The notes under the pieces: model-generated
Database searches by the model: none
What the model was told of the DNA's origin: nothing
What the model saw: only the letters and a program-made list of their open reading frames with translations
Part shown: positions 40,049 to 49,926 of the stretch, piece by piece
Layout: each line of letters starts with the position of its first letter
Position numbering within the stretch: the stretch's first letter is position 1
From: Bacillus sp. (in: firmicutes)
GTDB lineage: Bacteria; Bacillota; Bacilli; Bacillales; Bacillaceae
DNA: 49,926 nt
Reading direction: 5' to 3'
NCBI GenBank assembly: GCA_031180805.1
Contig: JAPSLL010000021.1
Coordinates: 13,552 to 63,477 of the forward strand
Program-made: the position numbers and the translations under genes

Positions 40049-41797
40049 ATGAAACAGCGAAAAATAAATTGGAACAGTGTATCAACTAAATTACTATTTT
40101 TAGTTAGTGTCATTATTCTTATTACATCATCAATTATTGGTTTTACAAGCTATTCAATCGCAAAAAAACTATTAATTGATGAAGGGAAGGCAGAGCTAAA
40201 ATATATTGTAGAAGGAGCATCTGTTACTTTATCTGTATTAAATGAACAAGTTGAAAATGAGGAAATAAGTCTTGAGGATGCAAAGGAAAAGGCAAGGGTA
40301 TTATTAAATGGACCAAAGCTTTCAGGAGATGGGGGTTATGATTTTAAAAAATCTGCCTTTTTATATAAGGATAGCGGCTATATTCTTGGCTATGGGCCTG
40401 ACTACTCAGCACAAATCCATCCATCGAATGAAGTAGGTTCCATCCCAAATGATACAAAAAATCGGGAGAAAATGGTCGAAGGAGCAAAAGCAAAAACTGA
40501 TGATCAACATTATGTTGTTTATGCTGATAAAAATGACGAGACTGGGGAAGTAAAAAATAAAATTGCATATATGACACACTTTAAGCCATGGGATCTTTCA
40601 ATTGGAATTGCTGTATATGAGGATGAGTTTTATAGTAAGCTTCAGGAATTAAAGATCTTGATTATTATCATTACAGCCATTATAGCTGTTATTAGTCTAG
40701 CTAGCTTTTATTTTTTAACGAGAAGGAAAGTGAAATTACTTGTTGATGCGACAAATGCAGCTATTAATATCTCGCAAGGTAGAATTGAAAAAGTAACATT
40801 ACCTGAATCAAAAGATGAAATTGGTCAATTAGGCTATGCATTTAATCGAATGACATCGCAACTGAGTGAGTTACTACAAAAACTGAATCAAATGAGCAAT
40901 CATTTGCTTGATTCCGCAACTGAGTTATCAGCAGTATCTGAGGAAACATCTGCAAGTAGTGAAGAAATCGGTCGTGCAATATCGGAAATCTCTAACGGGA
41001 CCATTTCCCAAGCAACGGATTTAGATGATACAAATCAAAGGGTTGAGCAATTAAATCAATTAATTGAAACAATGAATGTACAAGGAAATGCAATTAAGGA
41101 AAAGTCGTTGGATTCTGTTAAAGCAGCCGGACAAGGAAAGAAAATCGTACAAAAGTTACTCCAAACAAACGATGATTCTATAAAGGCTTTTGAGCAAATT
41201 AGTATTGGGATAAAGGGATTATCCACTAAAATAGGCGATATTTTTAAAATTACAGCTACAATAGAAAGTATTGCAGCAGAAACAAATCTTTTAGCATTGA
41301 ATGCTAGTATTGAAGCTGCACGTGCGGGTGAGCACGGGAAAGGCTTTGCTGTTGTTGCTAGTGAGGTTCGAAAACTGGCAGAGCAATCTAATTTTGCAAC
41401 AAAACAAATTCAAGATATGATAGCTGGGATTGAAAAAGAAACTGTAAAGACAGTAGAGACGATGGAGAGTACGACTGTCCATTCGCAGCAATTAAATCAA
41501 GCTGTAAAAGAAACTGAGATGGAATTTAATCATATTAATACTGCGATTAGTCAAACGATTAATGAAATTGAAGCATTAAATGAAGAACTATTACAAATCA
41601 CAAATGAGAATCAAAACATCACAATCGCGGTTCAAAACGCATCAAGTGTTTCCCAACAAACAGCAGCATCGATTGAAGAAATTACAGCATCAGTAGAAGA
41701 ACAAGTCGGTGCCATCTCAAATGTAGCAAAATCAGCAGAGCATCTAACTGAATTAAACAAGCAATTAGATGAATTGATTAAGAAGTATTCATTTTAA
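40049..41797 (+). CDS. Methyl-accepting chemotaxis protein with Cache sensor
   Basis: Chemoreceptor, 582 residues. TM1 ~15-37; extracytoplasmic single-Cache domain ~40-200 ([61 protein letters not shown]); TM2 ~203-225; HAMP ~226-280; signalling domain ~300-582. The conserved tip is near residue 410 ([34 protein letters not shown]). The Cache domain suggests sensing of a small organic ligand such as a carboxylate; the ligand is not readable. ATG 40049 follows AGGAGGGGG. The sigma-D promoter confirms membership in the motility regulon. Confidence 0.94.
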
Positions 41798-41820
41798 CAG
41801 TACTAAATTTCTAAATGATG

Positions 41821-41855
41821 AGGATTTCCCTTGGAAGGGGGGTCCTTATTTTTCT
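41821..41855 (+). terminator. Terminator of the second chemoreceptor gene
   Basis: AGGATTTCCC and GGGGGGTCCT with a T-rich tail. The rest of the gap to 42162 has one inverted repeat, CTTGAGAAATTG (41949) and CAATTCTCAAG (41983), without a T run; otherwise I see nothing. Confidence 0.65.
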
Positions 41856-42162
41856 CTAAAATTAGAAATTGAATTTGGTAAAAATGATTTAGGAGCCTGA
41901 AAAAAGCTTGAGGTTTCCCAAAGGAGCAAGTCAAATCTCTCAACCTTTCTTGAGAAATTGTCAACTTTGTAAAAATATCCCCCAATTCTCAAGTGATAAT
42001 CTGTCATCAATAAAAAAACTCATTTATCTCCTCGTTTGATATTCTAAATGTTTTTAACTCTACGTTATTTAATCTTCTAATTATCTTAGCGTTGCTTCAC
42101 AATATCTATTGCGAATGTAATACTAAGGTTAAAAGATTACACATATCGATAAAAAATTCACA

Positions 42163-42207
42163 TTGTAACTTTTTTGTAACTCTTTTATAGAGAAGGACTT
42201 ATATAAT
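42163..42207 (+). promoter_or_regulatory. Response-regulator-type direct repeat and promoter
   Basis: TTGTAACT at 42163-42170 and again at 42174-42181, an exact 11-base period as preferred by OmpR-family regulators. A -10 TATAAT follows at 42202-42207, with no good -35 at the expected place (ACTCTT), as in activator-dependent promoters. The repeat occupies the -35 side. It is probably the autoregulatory site of the operon's own response regulator. Confidence 0.55.
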
Positions 42208-42259
42208 GAAGTTATTCCAAATTAAGCAGTAATTGGAATAAAAGAATGGAGTGTACACC

Positions 42260-43519
42260 ATGAGAAAGAAAAGCAAATCAACATTAATGTTCGGTTTAGT
42301 TATGAGTAGTATGTTGTTATCCGGATGCCAGCTTGTTGAATCTCCTAACGCTTTAATTGAAGCACCACAACCGGAGAAAAAACAGAAAATAGAATTAAGT
42401 GAAAAAGCGTTTGAACTTCTACCATCTGATAGTGAATTACTAGTCCCGGAAAATTCCAATAAAAAACAATCGATTTATATTGCTGATGTTAATGACGATG
42501 GGAACCAGGAAGCGTTTCTTTTATATAGAGGATTAGGGAAAAAGCGTGAAGTTCATCTTCTTTCTTTGCAAGAAACAGAAAATGACTGGAAAGAAATATC
42601 AGACATTGAATTTGAGTACTTTAAGCTTGATTATTTCAATCTTCATGATTTAGACAATGATGGACAATTAGAAATCGTCATCGGACTTGGAATGTCTGAC
42701 TTTGAGTCGGAGAACGAGCTTAGAATTTATCAATGGGGTGCAGAAGGGCTTACGCAGCTAGCAAATAAAGGCTATGAAATCATCGATATTGCGGATTATG
42801 ATCGTGATAAAAATTTAGATATTCTTTTAGTTCACGGGAAGAGAAGAGAATTTATGGAGGCAGAGCATCTTCGGTTTAGGAATGGTCAACTAGAGGTAAG
42901 TTCAAGTGTAAATATAGATGAATATGCATTTCATGAGAATGTATTGAGTGGAAAATTACATGATGGTTCTCTGGCATTGTTTATTGATGGAGGAGTCGGA
43001 GCTCATTCAATGGTGACAGAAATCATTGCCATTGATGGGGGAAAGCTGATAAAGGTTGATGAAAGAACTAGCGGCATGATTATTAAAGAATACCCTCTGT
43101 ATAGCAAAGATATTAATAATGATGGAGTCATTGAAGTAGGTGGGATGTATATCCCAAAAGGCTGGGAAGAAGAGGCGTCTGCAGATATTCAGTTTATTGA
43201 ATACTATTCATCCTATTCAATAAATGGTGAAGAAAAAAAGATAGAGGAGAGATTTACGAACAGAGAACATAAATTTTACATCACAATTCCAGAAGAATGG
43301 TATGGAAAGGTTACAGTTAAAGAGCTTGAGAATGGTATTCAATTAATTTCTGTTTCAGATGATGAATTGCTTTTTGAGGTCAAATGGGGAAAACGTGAAT
43401 CAATTGAACCTTCCGGCCATGTCTTTAAGGAAACACAAAATACTATTTTTTATACAGTAATGAAAGAAAACGATTCGTTTCCATTTAAACAGTTTCATTT
43501 GCTAGAAGATGAATTTTAA
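42260..43519 (+). CDS. Lipoprotein with FG-GAP/VCBS-like calcium repeats
   Basis: 419 residues. A signal peptide with lipobox MLLSGC puts it on the outer face of the membrane. At least four Asp-rich loops fit FG-GAP/VCBS blades: DVNDDGNQEAF, DLDNDGQLEIV, DYDRDKNLDIL and DINNDGVIEVG. These bind calcium and usually build a beta-propeller for binding carbohydrate or protein. The C-terminal ~110 residues form a separate beta-rich domain (FYITIPEEWYGKVTV). ATG 42260 has GGAG eight bases upstream. First gene of an operon with a two-component system, so a likely co-sensor or target. Confidence 0.82.
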   Translation: MRKKSKSTLMFGLVMSSMLLSGCQLVESPNALIEAPQPEKKQKIELSEKAFELLPSDSELLVPENSNKKQSIYIADVNDDGNQEAFLLYRGLGKKREVHLLSLQETENDWKEISDIEFEYFKLDYFNLHDLDNDGQLEIVIGLGMSDFESENELRIYQWGAEGLTQLANKGYEIIDIADYDRDKNLDILLVHGKRREFMEAEHLRFRNGQLEVSSSVNIDEYAFHENVLSGKLHDGSLALFIDGGVGAHSMVTEIIAIDGGKLIKVDERTSGMIIKEYPLYSKDINNDGVIEVGGMYIPKGWEEEASADIQFIEYYSSYSINGEEKKIEERFTNREHKFYITIPEEWYGKVTVKELENGIQLISVSDDELLFEVKWGKRESIEPSGHVFKETQNTIFYTVMKENDSFPFKQFHLLEDEF

Positions 43520-43532
43520 GAGAGGGAAGTCC

Positions 43533-44231
43533 ATGAATAAAATCCTTGTTGTTGAAGATGAGTTATCAATACGTAGCTTCGTCAGCTTAAATCTTAAAAA
43601 GAAAGGATACCTTGTAACGGAGGCGGAAACTGGAGAGGAAGCGTTACGACTGTACCATAGAGAGCACTTTGATATTATTTTGCTAGATTTAATGCTCCCA
43701 GGAATCGATGGATTTGAAGTATGTCAAGAAATTAGAAAAACGAATCAATCAGTCGGCATTATTATGTTAACGGCTCGAACTCAGGAGAAGGATAAGGTCG
43801 AGGGATTAATCATTGGTGCAGATGACTACTTATATAAACCTTTTAGTTTAGTCGAGCTTGAGGCTAGAATTTTTTCTCTGCTTCGTAGACTAACAATCGA
43901 TCATTCAATTTCAAAGGAAAACGATGGTAGGCTTATTTCCGGTCCTTTTCAATTAGAAATGAATATGAAACGATTAATTTGCTCTGGACGAGAAATAAAA
44001 TTGACACCAACTGAATTTTCCATTCTTCACTACCTAATGAGCCATCCAAATCGTGTCTATACAAGAGATGAATTATTGGATGAGGTGTGGGGAAAAAACT
44101 ATGTAGGTGATTTAAAGGTTGTGGATGTAAACATTAGACGGATTCGTCAAAAAATCGAGGCAGATCCTTCTTCACCAGTCTATTTATGTACGGAGTGGGG
44201 GCTAGGCTATATATGGATGGGTAATGTATGA
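43533..44231 (+). CDS. OmpR-family response regulator
   Basis: 232 residues. Receiver domain 1-120: acidic pocket E8-D9, phospho-acceptor D52 in LLDLMLPG, T in MLTART, K in DDYLYKPFS. Winged-helix DNA-binding domain ~135-230 with LTPTEFSILHYLMSHPNRVYT split as LTPTEFSIL and NRVYTRDELLDEVWG, then VDVNIRRIRQKIE. ATG 43533 follows AGAGGGAA, 13 bases after the lipoprotein stop. The stop overlaps the kinase ATG (ATGA), so the pair is translationally coupled. Probably binds the 11-base-period repeat at 42163. Confidence 0.95.
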   Translation: MNKILVVEDELSIRSFVSLNLKKKGYLVTEAETGEEALRLYHREHFDIILLDLMLPGIDGFEVCQEIRKTNQSVGIIMLTARTQEKDKVEGLIIGADDYLYKPFSLVELEARIFSLLRRLTIDHSISKENDGRLISGPFQLEMNMKRLICSGREIKLTPTEFSILHYLMSHPNRVYTRDELLDEVWGKNYVGDLKVVDVNIRRIRQKIEADPSSPVYLCTEWGLGYIWMGNV

Positions 44232-45634
44232 AGCGCAAAGTCATCCTTTATTTCATGATTATCATCCTATTGACTTTAAGCTTAGTCATGACGGTGTTTG
44301 GCTTTGCCCTTACAAATTATTATTATCAAGGAATTGCTGGTACATTTCGTAATCATGTTGAAGCGATTAATCCGATTTGGGAAAAGGGAAATGAGTTTAA
44401 TTATGGTAGCTTAGAAGATTATAGTGACCTCATAATTAAAAGCTATCAATATAATCGAGCAGAACTGCAACTATTATCAAATGATGGAGAACTTATTCAA
44501 TCTTCATCTGGTTTTTATGAAGAGAAAACGTATTCAATTGATCCAAAAGTATTTTCCTATGAGACAATTTATAAAAAGGAAGTTATTCAACAAACAGGAG
44601 AGAAAGTGCTTGCTGTCTATATACCACTAATGTTAGATGGCCAGGTAGTTGGGGTGCTCCGCTATGTATCGACGTTAGCAAATGTTGATGAAGTGATTCA
44701 ACATTTCTTTAAATATGGAATTATGATTTGTTTAGGTGTTGCAATCGTTGTCTTTCTTATTAGTCTTCGTCTAGCAGATTCAATTGTAAGACCATTTAAA
44801 GAAATTATTCAGCATACACGTGAATTGTCAAAGGGACGATTTGAAAAACGAATAAAAGAAACATACCCTCATGAGCTTGGTGAAATGTCAAACACACTAA
44901 ATTATATGGCTGATGAAATTGTGAAGATGGATCGGTTAAAGACCGATTTCATTTCATCGATTTCTCATGAGCTCAGAACGCCACTTACAGGAATTAAAGG
45001 GTGGGTTGAAACGATGGAGTCACCAGAAGACTTAACGGAACAAGAGGTAAAATTTGGTTTGAGAATGATCCGGAGTGAATCTGAGCGGCTGATGAAATTA
45101 GTCGAAGATTTATTAGATTTTTCTAGGTATGAGTCAAATCGAATTACTCTGAACCAGGTTGAATTAAACTTTGATAAGCTTGTTTATGAAGTCACATTAC
45201 AACTTCGAAAAAGGGCAAAAGATAAAAATGTTTCAATTGTTCTAGAAAGTGTACCAGTTAGGCTTTTTGCTGATGGAGATAAAATGAGACAAGTAATTTT
45301 AAATTTATTGGATAACGCAATTAAGTTCTCAAAAAAGAATAGTGAGATTTTAATAAATCTATATGAAAGAAATCATTTTGCTGTGCTTGAAATCAGTGAT
45401 AAAGGAATTGGAATGAAGCAGGAAGAGCTAAGGTATATTATGGATTCCTTTTATAAAGTAGATTCAAAATCAATCGGCGCAGGACTTGGATTAGCTATCA
45501 CTCGAAATATTATCACAAAGCATGGTGGAATGATTGATGTTCTTAGTCAATATGGAAAAGGAACAACCGTTGTCGTTCAGTTACCTTTGGTTAAGAATTT
45601 AGTAGAAGAAATAGATAACGATGGAAAGAGGTAA
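44228..45634 (+). CDS. Sensor histidine kinase
   Basis: 468 residues. TM1 ~5-28; extracytoplasmic sensor ~29-163, PAS/Cache-like with AVYIPLMLDGQVVGVLRYV near its end; TM2 ~165-185; HAMP ~186-240 (IVRPFKEIIQHTRELSKGRF); HisKA with phospho-acceptor H247 in SISHELRTPLTGIKG; HATPase with LLDNAIKFS, DKGIGM and GAGLGLAI. No unusual loss of catalytic residues. Overlaps the regulator gene by four bases. The signal is unknown; the operon content points to the cell wall. Confidence 0.95.
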   Translation: MKRKVILYFMIIILLTLSLVMTVFGFALTNYYYQGIAGTFRNHVEAINPIWEKGNEFNYGSLEDYSDLIIKSYQYNRAELQLLSNDGELIQSSSGFYEEKTYSIDPKVFSYETIYKKEVIQQTGEKVLAVYIPLMLDGQVVGVLRYVSTLANVDEVIQHFFKYGIMICLGVAIVVFLISLRLADSIVRPFKEIIQHTRELSKGRFEKRIKETYPHELGEMSNTLNYMADEIVKMDRLKTDFISSISHELRTPLTGIKGWVETMESPEDLTEQEVKFGLRMIRSESERLMKLVEDLLDFSRYESNRITLNQVELNFDKLVYEVTLQLRKRAKDKNVSIVLESVPVRLFADGDKMRQVILNLLDNAIKFSKKNSEILINLYERNHFAVLEISDKGIGMKQEELRYIMDSFYKVDSKSIGAGLGLAITRNIITKHGGMIDVLSQYGKGTTVVVQLPLVKNLVEEIDNDGKR

Positions 45635-45639
45635 AGCAT

Positions 45640-47535
45640 ATGTGTGGATTTATTGGATATATGAGTGCGAATCTTAAAGAACATGCACTTGAAAAAAGGT
45701 TAACAACGGTTGATATGACGGCAATGATTACCCATCGGGGACCAGATGATGTGGGCTATTATTTTGATGACCATATTCACTTAGGCTTCAGAAGGTTAAG
45801 TATTATTGATGTTGAGAGTGGTAGACAGCCTTTATCATATGATGATCGTTACTGGATTACCTTTAATGGAGAGATTTATAACTATTTAGAGCTAAAACAA
45901 GAATTAGAGAAGAAGGGCTATAAGTTTCATACTGATTCAGATACAGAGGTCATTTTAGCATTATACAGCCATATTGGAAAACGAGTTGTTAATGAATTGC
46001 GCGGTATGTTTAGCTTTATTATTTGGGATCAGGAGAAAAAAGAATTATTCGGTGCTAGAGACCATTTTGGGATAAAGCCATTTTATTATTTTGAAACTGA
46101 CGATGAATTTTATTGCAGTTCGGAAAAGAAAAGTATAGTTAGTGCTATAAAAGGTAACGATAGTATGGATTTGGAATCTTTACACCATTATTTGACTTAT
46201 CAATATGTTCCAGAGCCTCAAACTTTATCAAAAGAGATTAAGAGACTAGAACCAGGATGCTTTTTTACAAAAACACTGGAAGGATCAACGGTTATTCAAT
46301 CCTTTTATAATCCTACCTTTTGCCCAATAAATCAACCATTTGTACAAGAGGTAAAAAAGATTCAAGATGTATTAAGAGATTCAGTTTCGATCCATTTACG
46401 AAGTGATGTGCCAGTTGGTGCCTTTTTATCCGGAGGAATTGACTCATCGAGTATTGTCGCTTTGGCGCGTGAGATTCATCCACGGATAAAAACGTTTACA
46501 GTTGGATTTAAAAGAAAGGGATATAGTGAAATTGAATTGGCACAGGAAACAGCTGCCGCATTAGGTGTAGATAATCTTCATTATGTCGTAACACCTGAAG
46601 AGTTTATTAAAGAACTCCCTAAAATAGTTTGGCATCTAGATGAACCTGTAGCGGATCCTGCTTTAGTCCCGTTGTATTTTATTGCTCGTGAAGCTAAGAA
46701 GCATGTAACAGTTGTTCTCTCTGGAGAAGGAGCGGATGAATTATTTGGAGGGTACAATATTTACAAAGAACCGCATTCGCTAAAATATTTCAAGCATTTC
46801 CCAAGTGGTATGAAGAAAGGCTGGCTTGCATTAGCAAGTAAATTACCAGATGGAGCTAAAGGGAAAAGTTATATTGAAAGAGGTACAACAAACCTTTCAA
46901 AAAGATATATAGGTAATGCAAAGATATTTTCTGAACTTGATAAAAGTAAGCTCTTACGAAACTATCAAGGAGAATGGACATATACAAATGTAACGAAGGA
47001 ATATTATCAATCGATCAACCACCTTCATGATATTCAAAAAATGCAATACATTGACATCCATACATGGTTGCGTGGAGATATCCTTGTTAAGGCAGACAGA
47101 ATGACGATGGCGCATTCTTTAGAGTTACGAGTTCCATTCCTTGATAAAGAGGTGTATAAAGTAGCGTCACAGCTTAGTCATGATAAAACAGTTACAAATC
47201 AACAAACAAAATACATACTTAGAAAAGCGATGGAAGGAATAATTCCTGATTCCGTGCTAAATCGCAAAAAATTAGGATTTCCAGTTCCGATTAGACATTG
47301 GCTACAAAACGAGCTATTTGATTGGGCTTATCAATTGATTATAGACAGTCAAACCGATCATCTATTTGAAAAGAATTATTTGTTATTTTTATTATCGGAG
47401 CATCAAAGAGGAGTACATGATAACAGTCGGAAAATCTGGACAGTTTTAATTTTTATGATATGGCATCAAGTTTATATCGAAAAGAAATACGACTTTCATC
47501 ACCATTCTATGGAGAGAGAAACCTTTGTCGTATAA
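45640..47535 (+). CDS. asnB: Glutamine-hydrolysing asparagine synthase, AsnB type
   Basis: 631 residues, matching B. subtilis AsnB (~632) along its length, including the end IWTVLIFMIWHQVYIEK. Class II amidotransferase domain with catalytic C2 (MCGFIGYM); LSIIDVESGRQPLS and FNGEIYNYLEL lie in the glutaminase site. The synthetase domain has the ATP P-loop SGGIDSS near residues 264-270 and LSGEGADELFGGY. In B. subtilis, AsnB is linked to amidation of meso-diaminopimelate in peptidoglycan. ATG 45640 starts five bases after the kinase stop, so it belongs to the two-component operon. Confidence 0.93.
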   Translation: MCGFIGYMSANLKEHALEKRLTTVDMTAMITHRGPDDVGYYFDDHIHLGFRRLSIIDVESGRQPLSYDDRYWITFNGEIYNYLELKQELEKKGYKFHTDSDTEVILALYSHIGKRVVNELRGMFSFIIWDQEKKELFGARDHFGIKPFYYFETDDEFYCSSEKKSIVSAIKGNDSMDLESLHHYLTYQYVPEPQTLSKEIKRLEPGCFFTKTLEGSTVIQSFYNPTFCPINQPFVQEVKKIQDVLRDSVSIHLRSDVPVGAFLSGGIDSSSIVALAREIHPRIKTFTVGFKRKGYSEIELAQETAAALGVDNLHYVVTPEEFIKELPKIVWHLDEPVADPALVPLYFIAREAKKHVTVVLSGEGADELFGGYNIYKEPHSLKYFKHFPSGMKKGWLALASKLPDGAKGKSYIERGTTNLSKRYIGNAKIFSELDKSKLLRNYQGEWTYTNVTKEYYQSINHLHDIQKMQYIDIHTWLRGDILVKADRMTMAHSLELRVPFLDKEVYKVASQLSHDKTVTNQQTKYILRKAMEGIIPDSVLNRKKLGFPVPIRHWLQNELFDWAYQLIIDSQTDHLFEKNYLLFLLSEHQRGVHDNSRKIWTVLIFMIWHQVYIEKKYDFHHHSMERETFVV

Positions 47536-47566
47536 AAAGCATGTAATAGAAAGAAGAGAAGAATCA

Positions 47567-48427
47567 GTGAAAAAGTTAATTGGATTTGTCTGCTTATTTT
47601 TAGTTGGATGTAATACTGAAACGAAGAATGTACCAACAAATGAACCGTTCGATCAAATTATGGAAGAAGCGGATTTAGCATTAGAAACTGGCGAATTTGA
47701 AAAAGCTATAACATCACTTGAACTAGCATTGGATGAAAAGCCAGATGATAAGAAAGCCAAAACATTATATGAGAATTTAGTTGCCTTCAATCTAGTTACT
47801 GAAGCAATGGAAAATGGGGATTGGGAAGATGCTTTAATGAAAGCAAATAACCTTCTAAAAGAAAAGTCACTTACGAGTAGTATAAAAGAAAAAGTGGAGA
47901 AATACATTGAAGAAAGTAAAGCTCAATTAGCTAAAAAAGAACAGATAGCAACTGAAAGTAAAACAACTGAAAATGATGAAATAGAAAAGGACGAGAAAAC
48001 AGCAAAAAATGCTGAGATTGTTAAAGAAAGCGGGGATGATGAGAAAGAAGAGAACGCAAATAGCGAAAGTAAACGAGAGAAGTATTTAAAAAAGTTAGCT
48101 GAAATTGAACTAAGTCTTGCTGAATATGAACAGGCATTAGAAAACGGAACAACTGTTGAAATGAAACAGGCTCAAGGTGAAATTTTTACAAGATGGGATA
48201 ATGTGTTAAATGAAATTTACCAAACATTAGAAGAGCAGCTTTCTCCGAGTGATATGGACAAATTAAGAGAAGAACAACGAAATTGGATTAAATACCGAGA
48301 TGAAACAGCAAAAGCAGCTGCCTCTAAATATGAAGGTGGGACAATGGAATCACTTGAATATATAAGCACACAAGCAGGGCTAACAAAAGAAAGATGCTAT
48401 GAACTAGTGGAAGGGTATATGGAGTAG
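47567..48427 (+). CDS. Lipoprotein with TPR-like region and LprI/DUF1311-like C-terminus
   Basis: About 286 residues. GTG 47567 gives a short lipoprotein signal MKKLIGFVCLFLVGC with a lipobox at LVGC. Residues ~30-105 are TPR-like helices (LALETGEFEKAITSLELALD). A charged Lys/Glu linker runs ~125-185. The C-terminal ~95 residues match the LprI/DUF1311 pattern: LNEIYQTLEEQL, LREEQRNWIKYRDETAK, YEGGTMESLEYIS and TKERCYELVEGY. LprI of Mycobacterium is a lysozyme inhibitor. TTG 47525, with GGAGAG upstream and overlapping asnB, is an alternative start. Last gene of the operon. Confidence 0.78.
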   Translation: MKKLIGFVCLFLVGCNTETKNVPTNEPFDQIMEEADLALETGEFEKAITSLELALDEKPDDKKAKTLYENLVAFNLVTEAMENGDWEDALMKANNLLKEKSLTSSIKEKVEKYIEESKAQLAKKEQIATESKTTENDEIEKDEKTAKNAEIVKESGDDEKEENANSESKREKYLKKLAEIELSLAEYEQALENGTTVEMKQAQGEIFTRWDNVLNEIYQTLEEQLSPSDMDKLREEQRNWIKYRDETAKAAASKYEGGTMESLEYISTQAGLTKERCYELVEGYME

Positions 48428-48459
48428 AAGCTGTAATTAAGAAATATCCAAAATTTTAA

Positions 48460-48492
48460 AATCCGCTAATCCAAGAGAATAGCGGGTTTATT
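48460..48492 (+). terminator. Terminator of the two-component/asnB operon
   Basis: AATCCGCTA and TAGCGGGTT with an 11-base loop and a T-rich tail. Confidence 0.75.
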
Positions 48493-48498
48493 GTTATT

Positions 48499-49047
48499 TT
48501 AAGTGTTCTGTTCATAGGTTGCTAGCCTATTTATTATGTTATCTACTATTTCGTTTAAAGATAGTAGACCATCAACAATGAAGTCAGCACTAGGTTTTAT
48601 TGTCCTTTCCATTACGGTGTAGGCACTTCTCCCCAACTTAAGATAATTCTCGTACTCATATGTGATTTCTTCAATTGAATTCACCTTAGAGCGGAAAAAT
48701 CTTCTTATCAATGCAATATCCAATGGTGTGTCCAAATAAATCGATAAATTAATAAAGTCATTTAATTGGGTATTTAGATAAGAAAATGGATAATCGAGAA
48801 TAATATAATTTATAGTAGAATTTTGTAATAACTTTTGAATATCTTGTCTAATAGGATTTACATTCCACTCATTGTAATCACCTCCTCTATCCACCCATTC
48901 AGAAAAGTTAGAAGGTTCTTCCAGATCATATTCATCGAAATGTATAGCTGTAGCTTTGTGAAGCCTTTTTGTGAGAGCGTTTGTAACAGCAGTTTTTCCT
49001 CCGCCTGATACAGAGGATATGGATATGACAAATGTTTTTTTGTGCAT
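48499..49047 (-). CDS. P-loop kinase, uridine kinase-like
   Basis: 182 residues. The Walker A motif is SISSVSGGGKTAVTNAL near residue 10; LDYPFSYL near ~95 fits Walker B, and a lid RRFFRSKVNS follows. The order of motifs resembles uridine kinase or phosphoribulokinase-type small-molecule kinases, but it is shorter, and the substrate is unknown. ATG 49047 has AAAGGAG upstream; the longer frame to 49101 has no ribosome site. Convergent with the asnB operon. Confidence 0.8.
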   Translation of the reverse strand: MHKKTFVISISSVSGGGKTAVTNALTKRLHKATAIHFDEYDLEEPSNFSEWVDRGGDYNEWNVNPIRQDIQKLLQNSTINYIILDYPFSYLNTQLNDFINLSIYLDTPLDIALIRRFFRSKVNSIEEITYEYENYLKLGRSAYTVMERTIKPSADFIVDGLLSLNEIVDNIINRLATYEQNT

Positions 49048-49112
49048 ACAATTCTCCTTTATTCCGTCTAAATATATTCTATCAGTAAGATAATAGGGCA
49101 AAAATAGTAAAA

Positions 49113-49158
49113 GTTCACAAAATGTTCACTTACGAGCAAGTAATCGTTTCGTTACAAT
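49113..49158 (+). promoter_or_regulatory. Direct repeat and promoter of the DUF2798 gene
   Basis: GTTCAC at 49113 and 49124 (11-base period), just before a weak promoter TTACGA, 17 bases, TACAAT (49153-49158). The period resembles a response-regulator site; it differs in sequence from the repeat at 42163. Confidence 0.45.
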
Positions 49159-49191
49159 AATCATCATGTGAAAAAAGAAAGGATGATTTTT

Positions 49192-49674
49192 TTGCCAACA
49201 ACAAAGAAAGAAAGTTTTTATTTTGGGGCAATGATGTGTTTTGGGATGGTCGTCGTGATGTCAGTCTATAATTTGTATGTAAATGGGTTGATTCATACGA
49301 TTACAATTAGCGGGTTTCTTATTCAATTTTTAATAGGATTTATCGTAGCATTTATATTAGATTTATTTATCGTAGGGCCAATTGCGAGGAAAATTGCTTT
49401 TTCCTTACCATATGATAAATCAAAGAAGATATTTGTTATTCTTTCGATGTCATTTTGTATGGTTTTAGGAATGGTATTCTGGATGTCGCTCTATGGATTA
49501 GGAACAGCATATATAAGCAACGGCATAAGTACTGATTCGATTGTACAAAGTTATGCATCAATCTTCATAAAAAACTTTATTGTTGCTCTACCTTTACAAT
49601 TGCTTATAATGGGCCCGATCGTTCGAACTATTTTTATGAAAATAAAAGGAAATCCAAAAGTGAATGTTGCATAA
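49192..49674 (+). CDS. DUF2798 integral membrane protein
   Basis: 160 residues with four predicted helices in two DUF2798 repeats. Each repeat ends in a similar motif: LFIVGPIARKIAF in the first and LLIMGPIVRTIFM in the second. The function is unknown. TTG 49192 gives the family-like start MPTTKKESFYFGAMMCFGM, with AAAGGA nine bases upstream; the longer GTG 49168 frame is less likely. Confidence 0.82.
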   Translation: MPTTKKESFYFGAMMCFGMVVVMSVYNLYVNGLIHTITISGFLIQFLIGFIVAFILDLFIVGPIARKIAFSLPYDKSKKIFVILSMSFCMVLGMVFWMSLYGLGTAYISNGISTDSIVQSYASIFIKNFIVALPLQLLIMGPIVRTIFMKIKGNPKVNVA

Positions 49675-49801
49675 GATTAAACGATTTATTTTAATTTAAA
49701 TAGTTATAGAATTTGGAAAAGTAGTTTTTGTGAAAAAAATTACTTTTCCTATTGCTAAAGTCCTATAGCTATGATAATATCACAGTAAGCGTATACAGGA
49801 C

Positions 49802-49830
49802 GGGTTGTTACTGTTAAATCAGGCAAAACC
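49802..49830 (+). promoter_or_regulatory. RAT antiterminator site, second copy
   Basis: GGGTTGTTACTG-TTAAAT-CAGGCAAAACC, the LicT/SacT-type target, partly overlapping the following terminator arm. Confidence 0.88.
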
Positions 49831-49868
49831 AATTACCTTTTAAAAAAGGTGTGGTTTTGCCTTTTTTA
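49822..49868 (+). terminator. RAT-controlled leader terminator
   Basis: GGCAAAACC and GGTTTTGCC with an inner ACCTTTT/AAAAGGT stem, then TTTTTT. It lies 19 bases before the start codon of the antiterminator gene. Confidence 0.9.
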
Positions 49869-49886
49869 TATATCGGAGGTGTTAAA

Positions 49887-49926
49887 GTGATTATCGAAAA
49901 AGTATTAAACAACAATGCAGTCGTTT
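49887..49926 (+). CDS. BglG-family antiterminator, 3' partial
   Basis: GTG 49887 follows GGAGGTG and begins MIIEKVLNNNAVV, the start of a CAT RNA-binding domain (LicT/SacT/GlcT family). The rest lies beyond the window. The RAT and terminator in its leader mean that it should control its own transcript. Confidence 0.82.
   Translation, partial: MIIEKVLNNNAVV

Follow-up and report, generated by a model that had tools for sequence, protein, structure and literature searches.

Lipoproteins with a propeller domain have already been described beside two-component systems. According to the accessible part of PMC9210968, the wal operon of C. difficile (walA-walR-walK-truA2) starts with WalA, a lipoprotein that is predicted to carry a beta-propeller lyase domain and is called unique to C. 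difficile, and overexpression of WalR raises pgdA and asnB. In Parageobacillus thermoglucosidasius, the seven-bladed propeller lipoprotein AOT13_14265 of a likely two-component operon has been proposed to contact the kinase and compared with actinobacterial LpqB, a propeller-domain lipoprotein reported to interact with the envelope-controlling two-component system MtrAB; it is noted as a single case, and neither a family nor a promoter code nor genes for wall modification are mentioned in the available text (PMC13068155). Here we analysed a stretch of 49,926 nucleotides (the window) from Bacillus sp. assembly GCA_031180805.1 (contig JAPSLL010000021.1, positions 13,552 to 63,477), in which five + strand genes at 42163-48492 encode, in this order, a propeller lipoprotein, a response regulator (RR), a histidine kinase (HK), an AsnB-type enzyme and a second lipoprotein with an LprI domain. 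The first three are together referred to as the triad. The locus resembles all of these systems, two of them by description only: C. difficile has a propeller lipoprotein, an RR and a PAS-less kinase in that order, and AOT13_14265 likewise belongs to a probable two-component operon. The C. difficile operon differs in carrying truA2 where AsnB and LprI stand here, and in reportedly being essential and not autoregulated. MtrAB-LpqB belongs to another phylum, with another lipoprotein family than the triad, and Streptomyces CseABC, which also joins a lipoprotein, an RR and a kinase in answering envelope stress, has yet another lipoprotein and a sigma-factor output.

We consider it probable that the operon is a three-component envelope-sensing system that activates itself together with peptidoglycan-modifying enzymes, and it seems to be one version of a kind of system that is widespread but has drawn little notice. 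A first-pass annotation, made from the letters alone, had described five packed genes closed by a terminator, and the coordinates of the open reading frames (ORFs) agree, with gaps of 13, -4, 5 and then 31 bases (or an overlap if the last gene starts at a TTG). The closing hairpin with its T-rich tail (48459-48489, + strand) folds at -13.5 kcal/mol (z -2.4; 3 of 200 shuffled sequences fold equally well), although it is absent from the output of a simple terminator scan. The gene products were also read correctly. The first (42260-43519, 419 aa) is an FG-GAP/VCBS-type beta-propeller lipoprotein with lipobox LSGC (Cys23), four readable Asp-rich loops and a Pfam match to FG-GAP_3 (PF13517, 7.5e-9, 36.5 bits vs a cut-off of 26.9). 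It is followed by an OmpR-family RR (43533-44231; Response_reg and Trans_reg_C), a membrane HK (44228-45634; HAMP, HisKA and HATPase_c) and an AsnB-type glutamine amidotransferase (45640-47535; GATase_7 and Asn_synthase in Pfam, with an NCBIfam match). The last is a lipoprotein (47567-48427 from a GTG, or from TTG 47525) whose C-terminus, suspected to be LprI/DUF1311-like, matches LprI (PF07007) at 1.8e-20 (73.7 bits vs a cut-off of 22). The propeller protein is 95% identical over its full length to its M. niabensis counterpart, and the host genome, an assembly of 119 contigs, is most likely a Metabacillus.

The five genes had been proposed as one module, and their linkage is indeed kept in relatives. 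The conserved unit, however, is propeller-RR-HK, to which AsnB and LprI are clade-specific additions; a conserved five-gene unit was rejected because these two genes are missing from most triads read. As a single query, the window propeller matched 7 of 80 genomes of the family, one of them weakly, while a nine-row profile (A2) matched 73 of 397 genomes of the order and 67 of 398 of the phylum, with many weak or partial matches. We then read 72 propeller loci and called the propeller in 68. Comparison of their sequences establishes the triad as conserved: propeller, RR and HK lie in one direction in 51 of the 72, in Bacilli and Clostridia alike, and L054, annotated with the same order and missed by our ORF filter, is additional to these. 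The lipobox Cys and the Asp-rich loops are invariant among the propeller orthologues. A C. difficile-like walA-walR-walK-truA arrangement was tried and rejected, as a search of 26 loci out of a set of 30 found no truA motif; for 20 further regions, truA was checked by Pfam in two ORFs of L260 only.

The RRs of the triads form a distinct clade. In a tree of 33 of them, a subset of those found, they make up a single group (support 100/99.8), separate from canonical WalR (98/87) and from four other RRs of the window's own genome. This genome also encodes a canonical WalR beside WalK, and WalR and the triad RR are 46.7% identical. The window HK scores 233 bits on the WalK model NF033092 (cut-off 725), while the canonical WalK of the same genome, on a different contig, scores 865.8 bits. 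The triad thus resembles canonical WalRK (YycFG) in its OmpR-type RR, in a similar recognition helix (VDVNIRR vs VDVTVRR in WalR), in a box of the type TGTWAH-N5-TGTWAH and in probable envelope-gene targets, and differs from it in its own RR clade, in the presence of both systems in one genome, in the lack of a PAS match and in the propeller lipoprotein of the operon. Membership in canonical WalRK was rejected, since the RR lies outside the WalR clade, the HK falls below the WalK cut-off and the genome has a separate WalK. Among 24 propeller-positive genomes, WalK exceeds the cut-off in 16 (13 Bacillales-type and 3 Paenibacillus-type) and in none of the eight Clostridia-type ones. The idea that propeller-bearing Clostridia are without WalK was nevertheless dropped, because two of them (G772 and G788) encode a WalR-like RR next to a kinase that resembles WalK and scores below the cut-off.

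A rigid promoter code is shared by the triads and certain wall-modifying genes. In the window, a direct-repeat box TGTAAC-N5-TGTAAC (42163-42181, + strand), the putative site of the operon's own RR, stands 21 bp before a -10 element TATAAT (42202-42207) with no good -35. The box, TTGTAACTTTTTTGTAACT, is a perfect repeat from 42163 (chance alone predicts 0.09 occurrences in the window), and the code TGTWAY-N5-TGTWAY-N21-TATAAT begins at 42164. The spacing of 21 bp is kept in 12 of 12 related loci (the window, L153-L162 and L115), in 20 of 20 propeller promoters (selected by the presence of the box), in 4 of 5 AsnB promoters (the fifth has 22) and in 10 of 11 deacetylase promoters. We scanned both strands of 71 loci (1.04 Mb), which had been chosen for their propeller, so that the scan tests the code and its spacing and not genome-wide specificity. 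The full code occurred 35 times vs 0.1 in shuffled sequences, and among spacings of 12 to 31 bp any other than 21 gave at most 3 sites. By position, 25 of the sites belong to propeller-family genes, 4 to AsnB, 5 to deacetylases and 1 to a sigma-factor-like gene. Within 250 bp upstream, the exact consensus precedes 26 of 67 propeller genes, 6 of 15 deacetylases and 9 of 653 other genes, five of these nine being divergent AsnB; with one mismatch allowed, the counts are 33 of 67, 13 of 15 and 41 of 653. Among the genes listed, the box is found upstream of 5 of 5 divergent AsnB and 0 of 32 other AsnB (the Fisher tests on these counts set the five divergent AsnB apart, and the third used 33 other AsnB vs the 32 listed). 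A box belongs to each of the 11 deacetylases scanned for it, being exact in 6 and one mismatch away in 5. The L122 box lies a short way into the longest ORF, whose start is therefore probably set too early.

Wall-modifying genes are linked to the triad repeatedly, again as read from the sequences. AsnB directly follows HK in the window, M. niabensis, M. halosaccharovorans and Bacillus sp. J37, and the LprI gene then follows in three of these four genomes, the M. niabensis locus ending in AsnB. In Bacillus sp. V59.32b, PAMC26568 and CECT 9360, Robertmurraya kyonggiensis and Peribacillus loiseleuriae, AsnB lies divergently upstream and LprI follows HK, while M. kandeliae and L115 have LprI and no adjacent AsnB. 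The window AsnB shares 54% identity with its metK-linked paralogue in the same genome and 28-31% with a third paralogue; more generally, operon AsnB shares 53-67% identity with the metK-linked and related enzymes vs 28-31% with the distant paralogue. It groups with the metK-linked type, in a tree from which B. subtilis AsnB itself, which we take to be metK-linked, is absent. Published mDAP (meso-diaminopimelate) amidases fall in the B. subtilis AsnB clade, and in Listeria, AsnB amidates peptidoglycan mDAP and its loss leads to higher lysozyme sensitivity, according to the accessible part of PMC8554201. Judged from these likenesses, the operon AsnB likely acts in mDAP amidation of peptidoglycan. 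A single inherited AsnB linkage was rejected, as approximately unbiased (AU) tests of a group defined only once the first tree was known exclude in-operon and divergent AsnB as one clade (p 0.0006 with 17 rows; 0.0004 with 46 rows, that is, the 17 plus 29 from new loci, for which the tool warns of long branches); replacement after one linkage may also account for the difference.

Polysaccharide deacetylases adjoin the triad in 13 loci of eight family-level groups, on the same strand in L119-L122, L126 and L131 and divergently in L117, L124, L129 and L148-L151. Polysacc_deac_1 (PF01522) is clear in all four scanned with Pfam, from which the profile used to assign the others was built. The best NCBIfam model is PgdA2 in 7 of 7 scanned, at 141-166 bits, below its cut-off of 400.

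From these observations, a working model can be drawn. The membrane-anchored propeller lipoprotein would probably modulate the adjacent PAS-less kinase, as reported for LpqB with MtrAB. We infer that the local RR, and not canonical WalR, when phosphorylated binds TGTWAY-N5-TGTWAY, 21 bp upstream of a -10 without a good -35; because the same code stands before propeller, AsnB and deacetylase genes, the bound RR is most likely an activator both of the operon it belongs to and of enzymes that modify peptidoglycan. For the Metabacillus studied here, this would mean AsnB, for mDAP amidation, and the lipoprotein with the LprI domain as outputs. The output would be a divergent AsnB with a box of its own in Robertmurraya, Peribacillus and their relatives, and a polysaccharide deacetylase resembling PgdA in many other Bacillales. 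Such walls would be expected to withstand lysozyme-like or autolytic cleavage better. The WalR outputs of C. difficile, pgdA and asnB, are of the gene kinds that neighbour the triads, from which we infer that the triad senses the state of the envelope and switches on wall modification. The propeller's role, the substrate of AsnB, the signal and the physiological effect are conditional in the same way.

The binding of the box by the local RR is the step most open to another explanation, namely that canonical WalR binds it and the local pair has another target. The window box fits TGTWAH-N5-TGTWAH, the WalR consensus quoted in PMC9210968, and to judge by its letters canonical WalR could bind it; since the triad RR keeps a WalR-like helix, either protein could. 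WalK exceeds its cut-off in the genome of the window and in each of the 16 Bacilli-type propeller genomes that were tested. Moreover, away from the triad in genome G327 (L345), TGTAAC-N5-TGTAAT stands 21 bp before TAGAAT, upstream of a gene for a LysM-type secreted protein, which may be a target of canonical WalR. A comparable repeat with a poor -10 precedes, in G056, a gene whose product begins like an NlpC/P60 protein (the LysM and NlpC/P60 labels come from our reading of the sequence). We nevertheless hold this explanation to be unlikely. In nine triad genomes, the 17-bp T-spacer box core with at most one mismatch occurs at 13 sites, 12 of them at the triad locus (reversed control, 5); the box accompanies the triad even where AsnB is divergent; and the 35 full-code sites, in a scan of triad-family loci, lie at triad-type genes, with the sigma-factor-like gene, itself beside a propeller gene, as the one exception. 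As a separate matter, a wider regulon in the window's own genome was looked for and rejected: a genome-wide search restricted to TGTAAY-N5-TGTAAY gave seven other sites, all of them lacking a convincing -10 at 21 bp.

A role of AsnB as an ordinary asparagine synthetase, within a system that answers nitrogen or amino-acid supply, is improbable: NCBIfam does label the enzyme asparagine synthase (TIGR01536), but its identity lies with the metK-linked and related AsnB, the published mDAP amidases fall in the B. subtilis clade, and sister triads adjoin polysaccharide deacetylases. As for a common two-component system that merely has unrelated genes as chance neighbours, the absence of AsnB and LprI from most triads read would agree with it, but it is contradicted by the triad order in 51 of 72 loci, by AsnB linked in two arrangements and by the common promoter code, and we give it very little credence.

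Self-activation of the envelope-sensing system, with wall-modifying outputs, has several further points to answer. An exact box precedes the operon head in 22 of the 51 triads (L162 is a miss owing to a mis-set head, its box having been found separately), in none of 8 Paenibacillus-type triads, and was unseen in most Clostridia. A looser box occurs at about control frequency in 6 of 9 genomes and is commoner in 3. The triad itself varies, with propeller then HK and no RR between them in L116 and L128, two tandem propellers before RR-HK in L123, RR-HK preceding the propeller in L247 and L248, and no adjacent two-component system in others, among them L141 and most of group f157. The difference in AsnB lineage may reflect gene replacement after one linkage, a possible course. 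A model of the first 235 HK residues (predicted local distance difference test, pLDDT, 53.3) is too poor to name a fold for the sensor. In C. difficile, as far as the accessible part of PMC9210968 reports, the wal operon is not autoregulated and asnB is unchanged on wal knock-down. The function of LprI is also doubtful. All of these weigh against the proposed system.

A broader interpretation can be put forward only tentatively, as possible but rather doubtful: a Firmicutes-wide three-component system for armouring peptidoglycan, apart from canonical WalRK, in which the propeller would be a wall or hydrolase sensor, the rigid code would permit enzymes (amidase, deacetylase) to be swapped, and the essential 'WalRK' of C. 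difficile would belong to it and not be orthologous to canonical WalRK. C. difficile WalA, called unique, may have a broad family open to study in harmless Bacillaceae. A promoter code that is readable from sequence predicts the targets of such a system, and mDAP amidation and polysaccharide deacetylation, both linked to lysozyme resistance, would be tied to one sensor family. In the open-access literature, judged from listings, we found no further paper on the propeller family, the promoter code or the link to AsnB and deacetylases.

The first-pass annotation had further supposed that the operon induces wall amidation plus a lysozyme inhibitor. Its wall-modification part is largely supported, by the conserved synteny, the two AsnB arrangements with their different AsnB lineages and the shared code, but the inhibitor part looks weak, as the window LprI protein has no match to MliC (PF09864) at E<=1. 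Lysozyme inhibition by mycobacterial LprI is credited to the MliC domain, and no lysozyme role was found for the Salmonella LprI-domain protein ScwA, as stated in the available text of PMC7933661. The LprI domain is real, and its name overstates what is known of function. The lipoprotein occupies the equivalent position in 10 of 12 loci (the window, L153-L162 and L115), L153 being cut off and L161 without it. The GTG start at 47567 is favoured because the orthologues in L154 and L155 have an ATG at the matching position. An N-terminal stretch (47567-47930) is weakly TPR-like, below the Pfam cut-off, and is lacking in the 168-aa orthologues of M. halosaccharovorans and J37. In these same two genomes (G056/L043 and G066/L044), the operon AsnB is the sole AsnB at E<=1e-100 and may have replaced the metK-linked housekeeping copy.

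The AlphaFold model of the propeller has a mean pLDDT of 61.7; its blades span about residues 51-220 (block means 63-90), the remainder being low, and the model is credible over this part only. The 50 Foldseek matches listed for this partial model are headed by propeller proteins (KICSTOR, DDB1, integrin alpha and a PL11 lyase), with E values from 1.5e-5 downward and template modelling scores of only about 0.3. The HK has an extracellular region of about 130 aa by reading of the sequence, and a Pfam search found no PAS domain in the kinase. Kinase relatives scoring 312-332 bits occur in group f193 (L310, L312, L314, L315 and L317-L321) in the order RR-HK-lipoprotein, mostly with a lipoprotein-like protein of about 480 aa, different from the propeller, in its place.

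Around the operon, promoter-like sites show no excess (31 vs 35.9 in shuffled sequences; 41500-49926, both strands), and terminator-like sites number 7 vs 3.3 in the simple scan, which lists two weak + strand hairpins within HK and AsnB. No Rfam family reaches its gathering score in 41700-49926. Among other neighbours, Paenibacillus-type triads (L133-L138) have no box and an ORF of about 241 aa lying 4-166 bp upstream, with an ABC ATPase in L133, and glycogen genes lie near the triad in L053, an annotated relative of these. A LytR-CpsA-Psr gene is directly upstream in L142. Sigma-factor-like genes that carry the same box stand near a propeller gene in L254 (9874-9954, full code) and L252 (3287-3796), with Sigma70 domains shown for the L252 gene only, hinting that some Clostridia route their output through a sigma factor.

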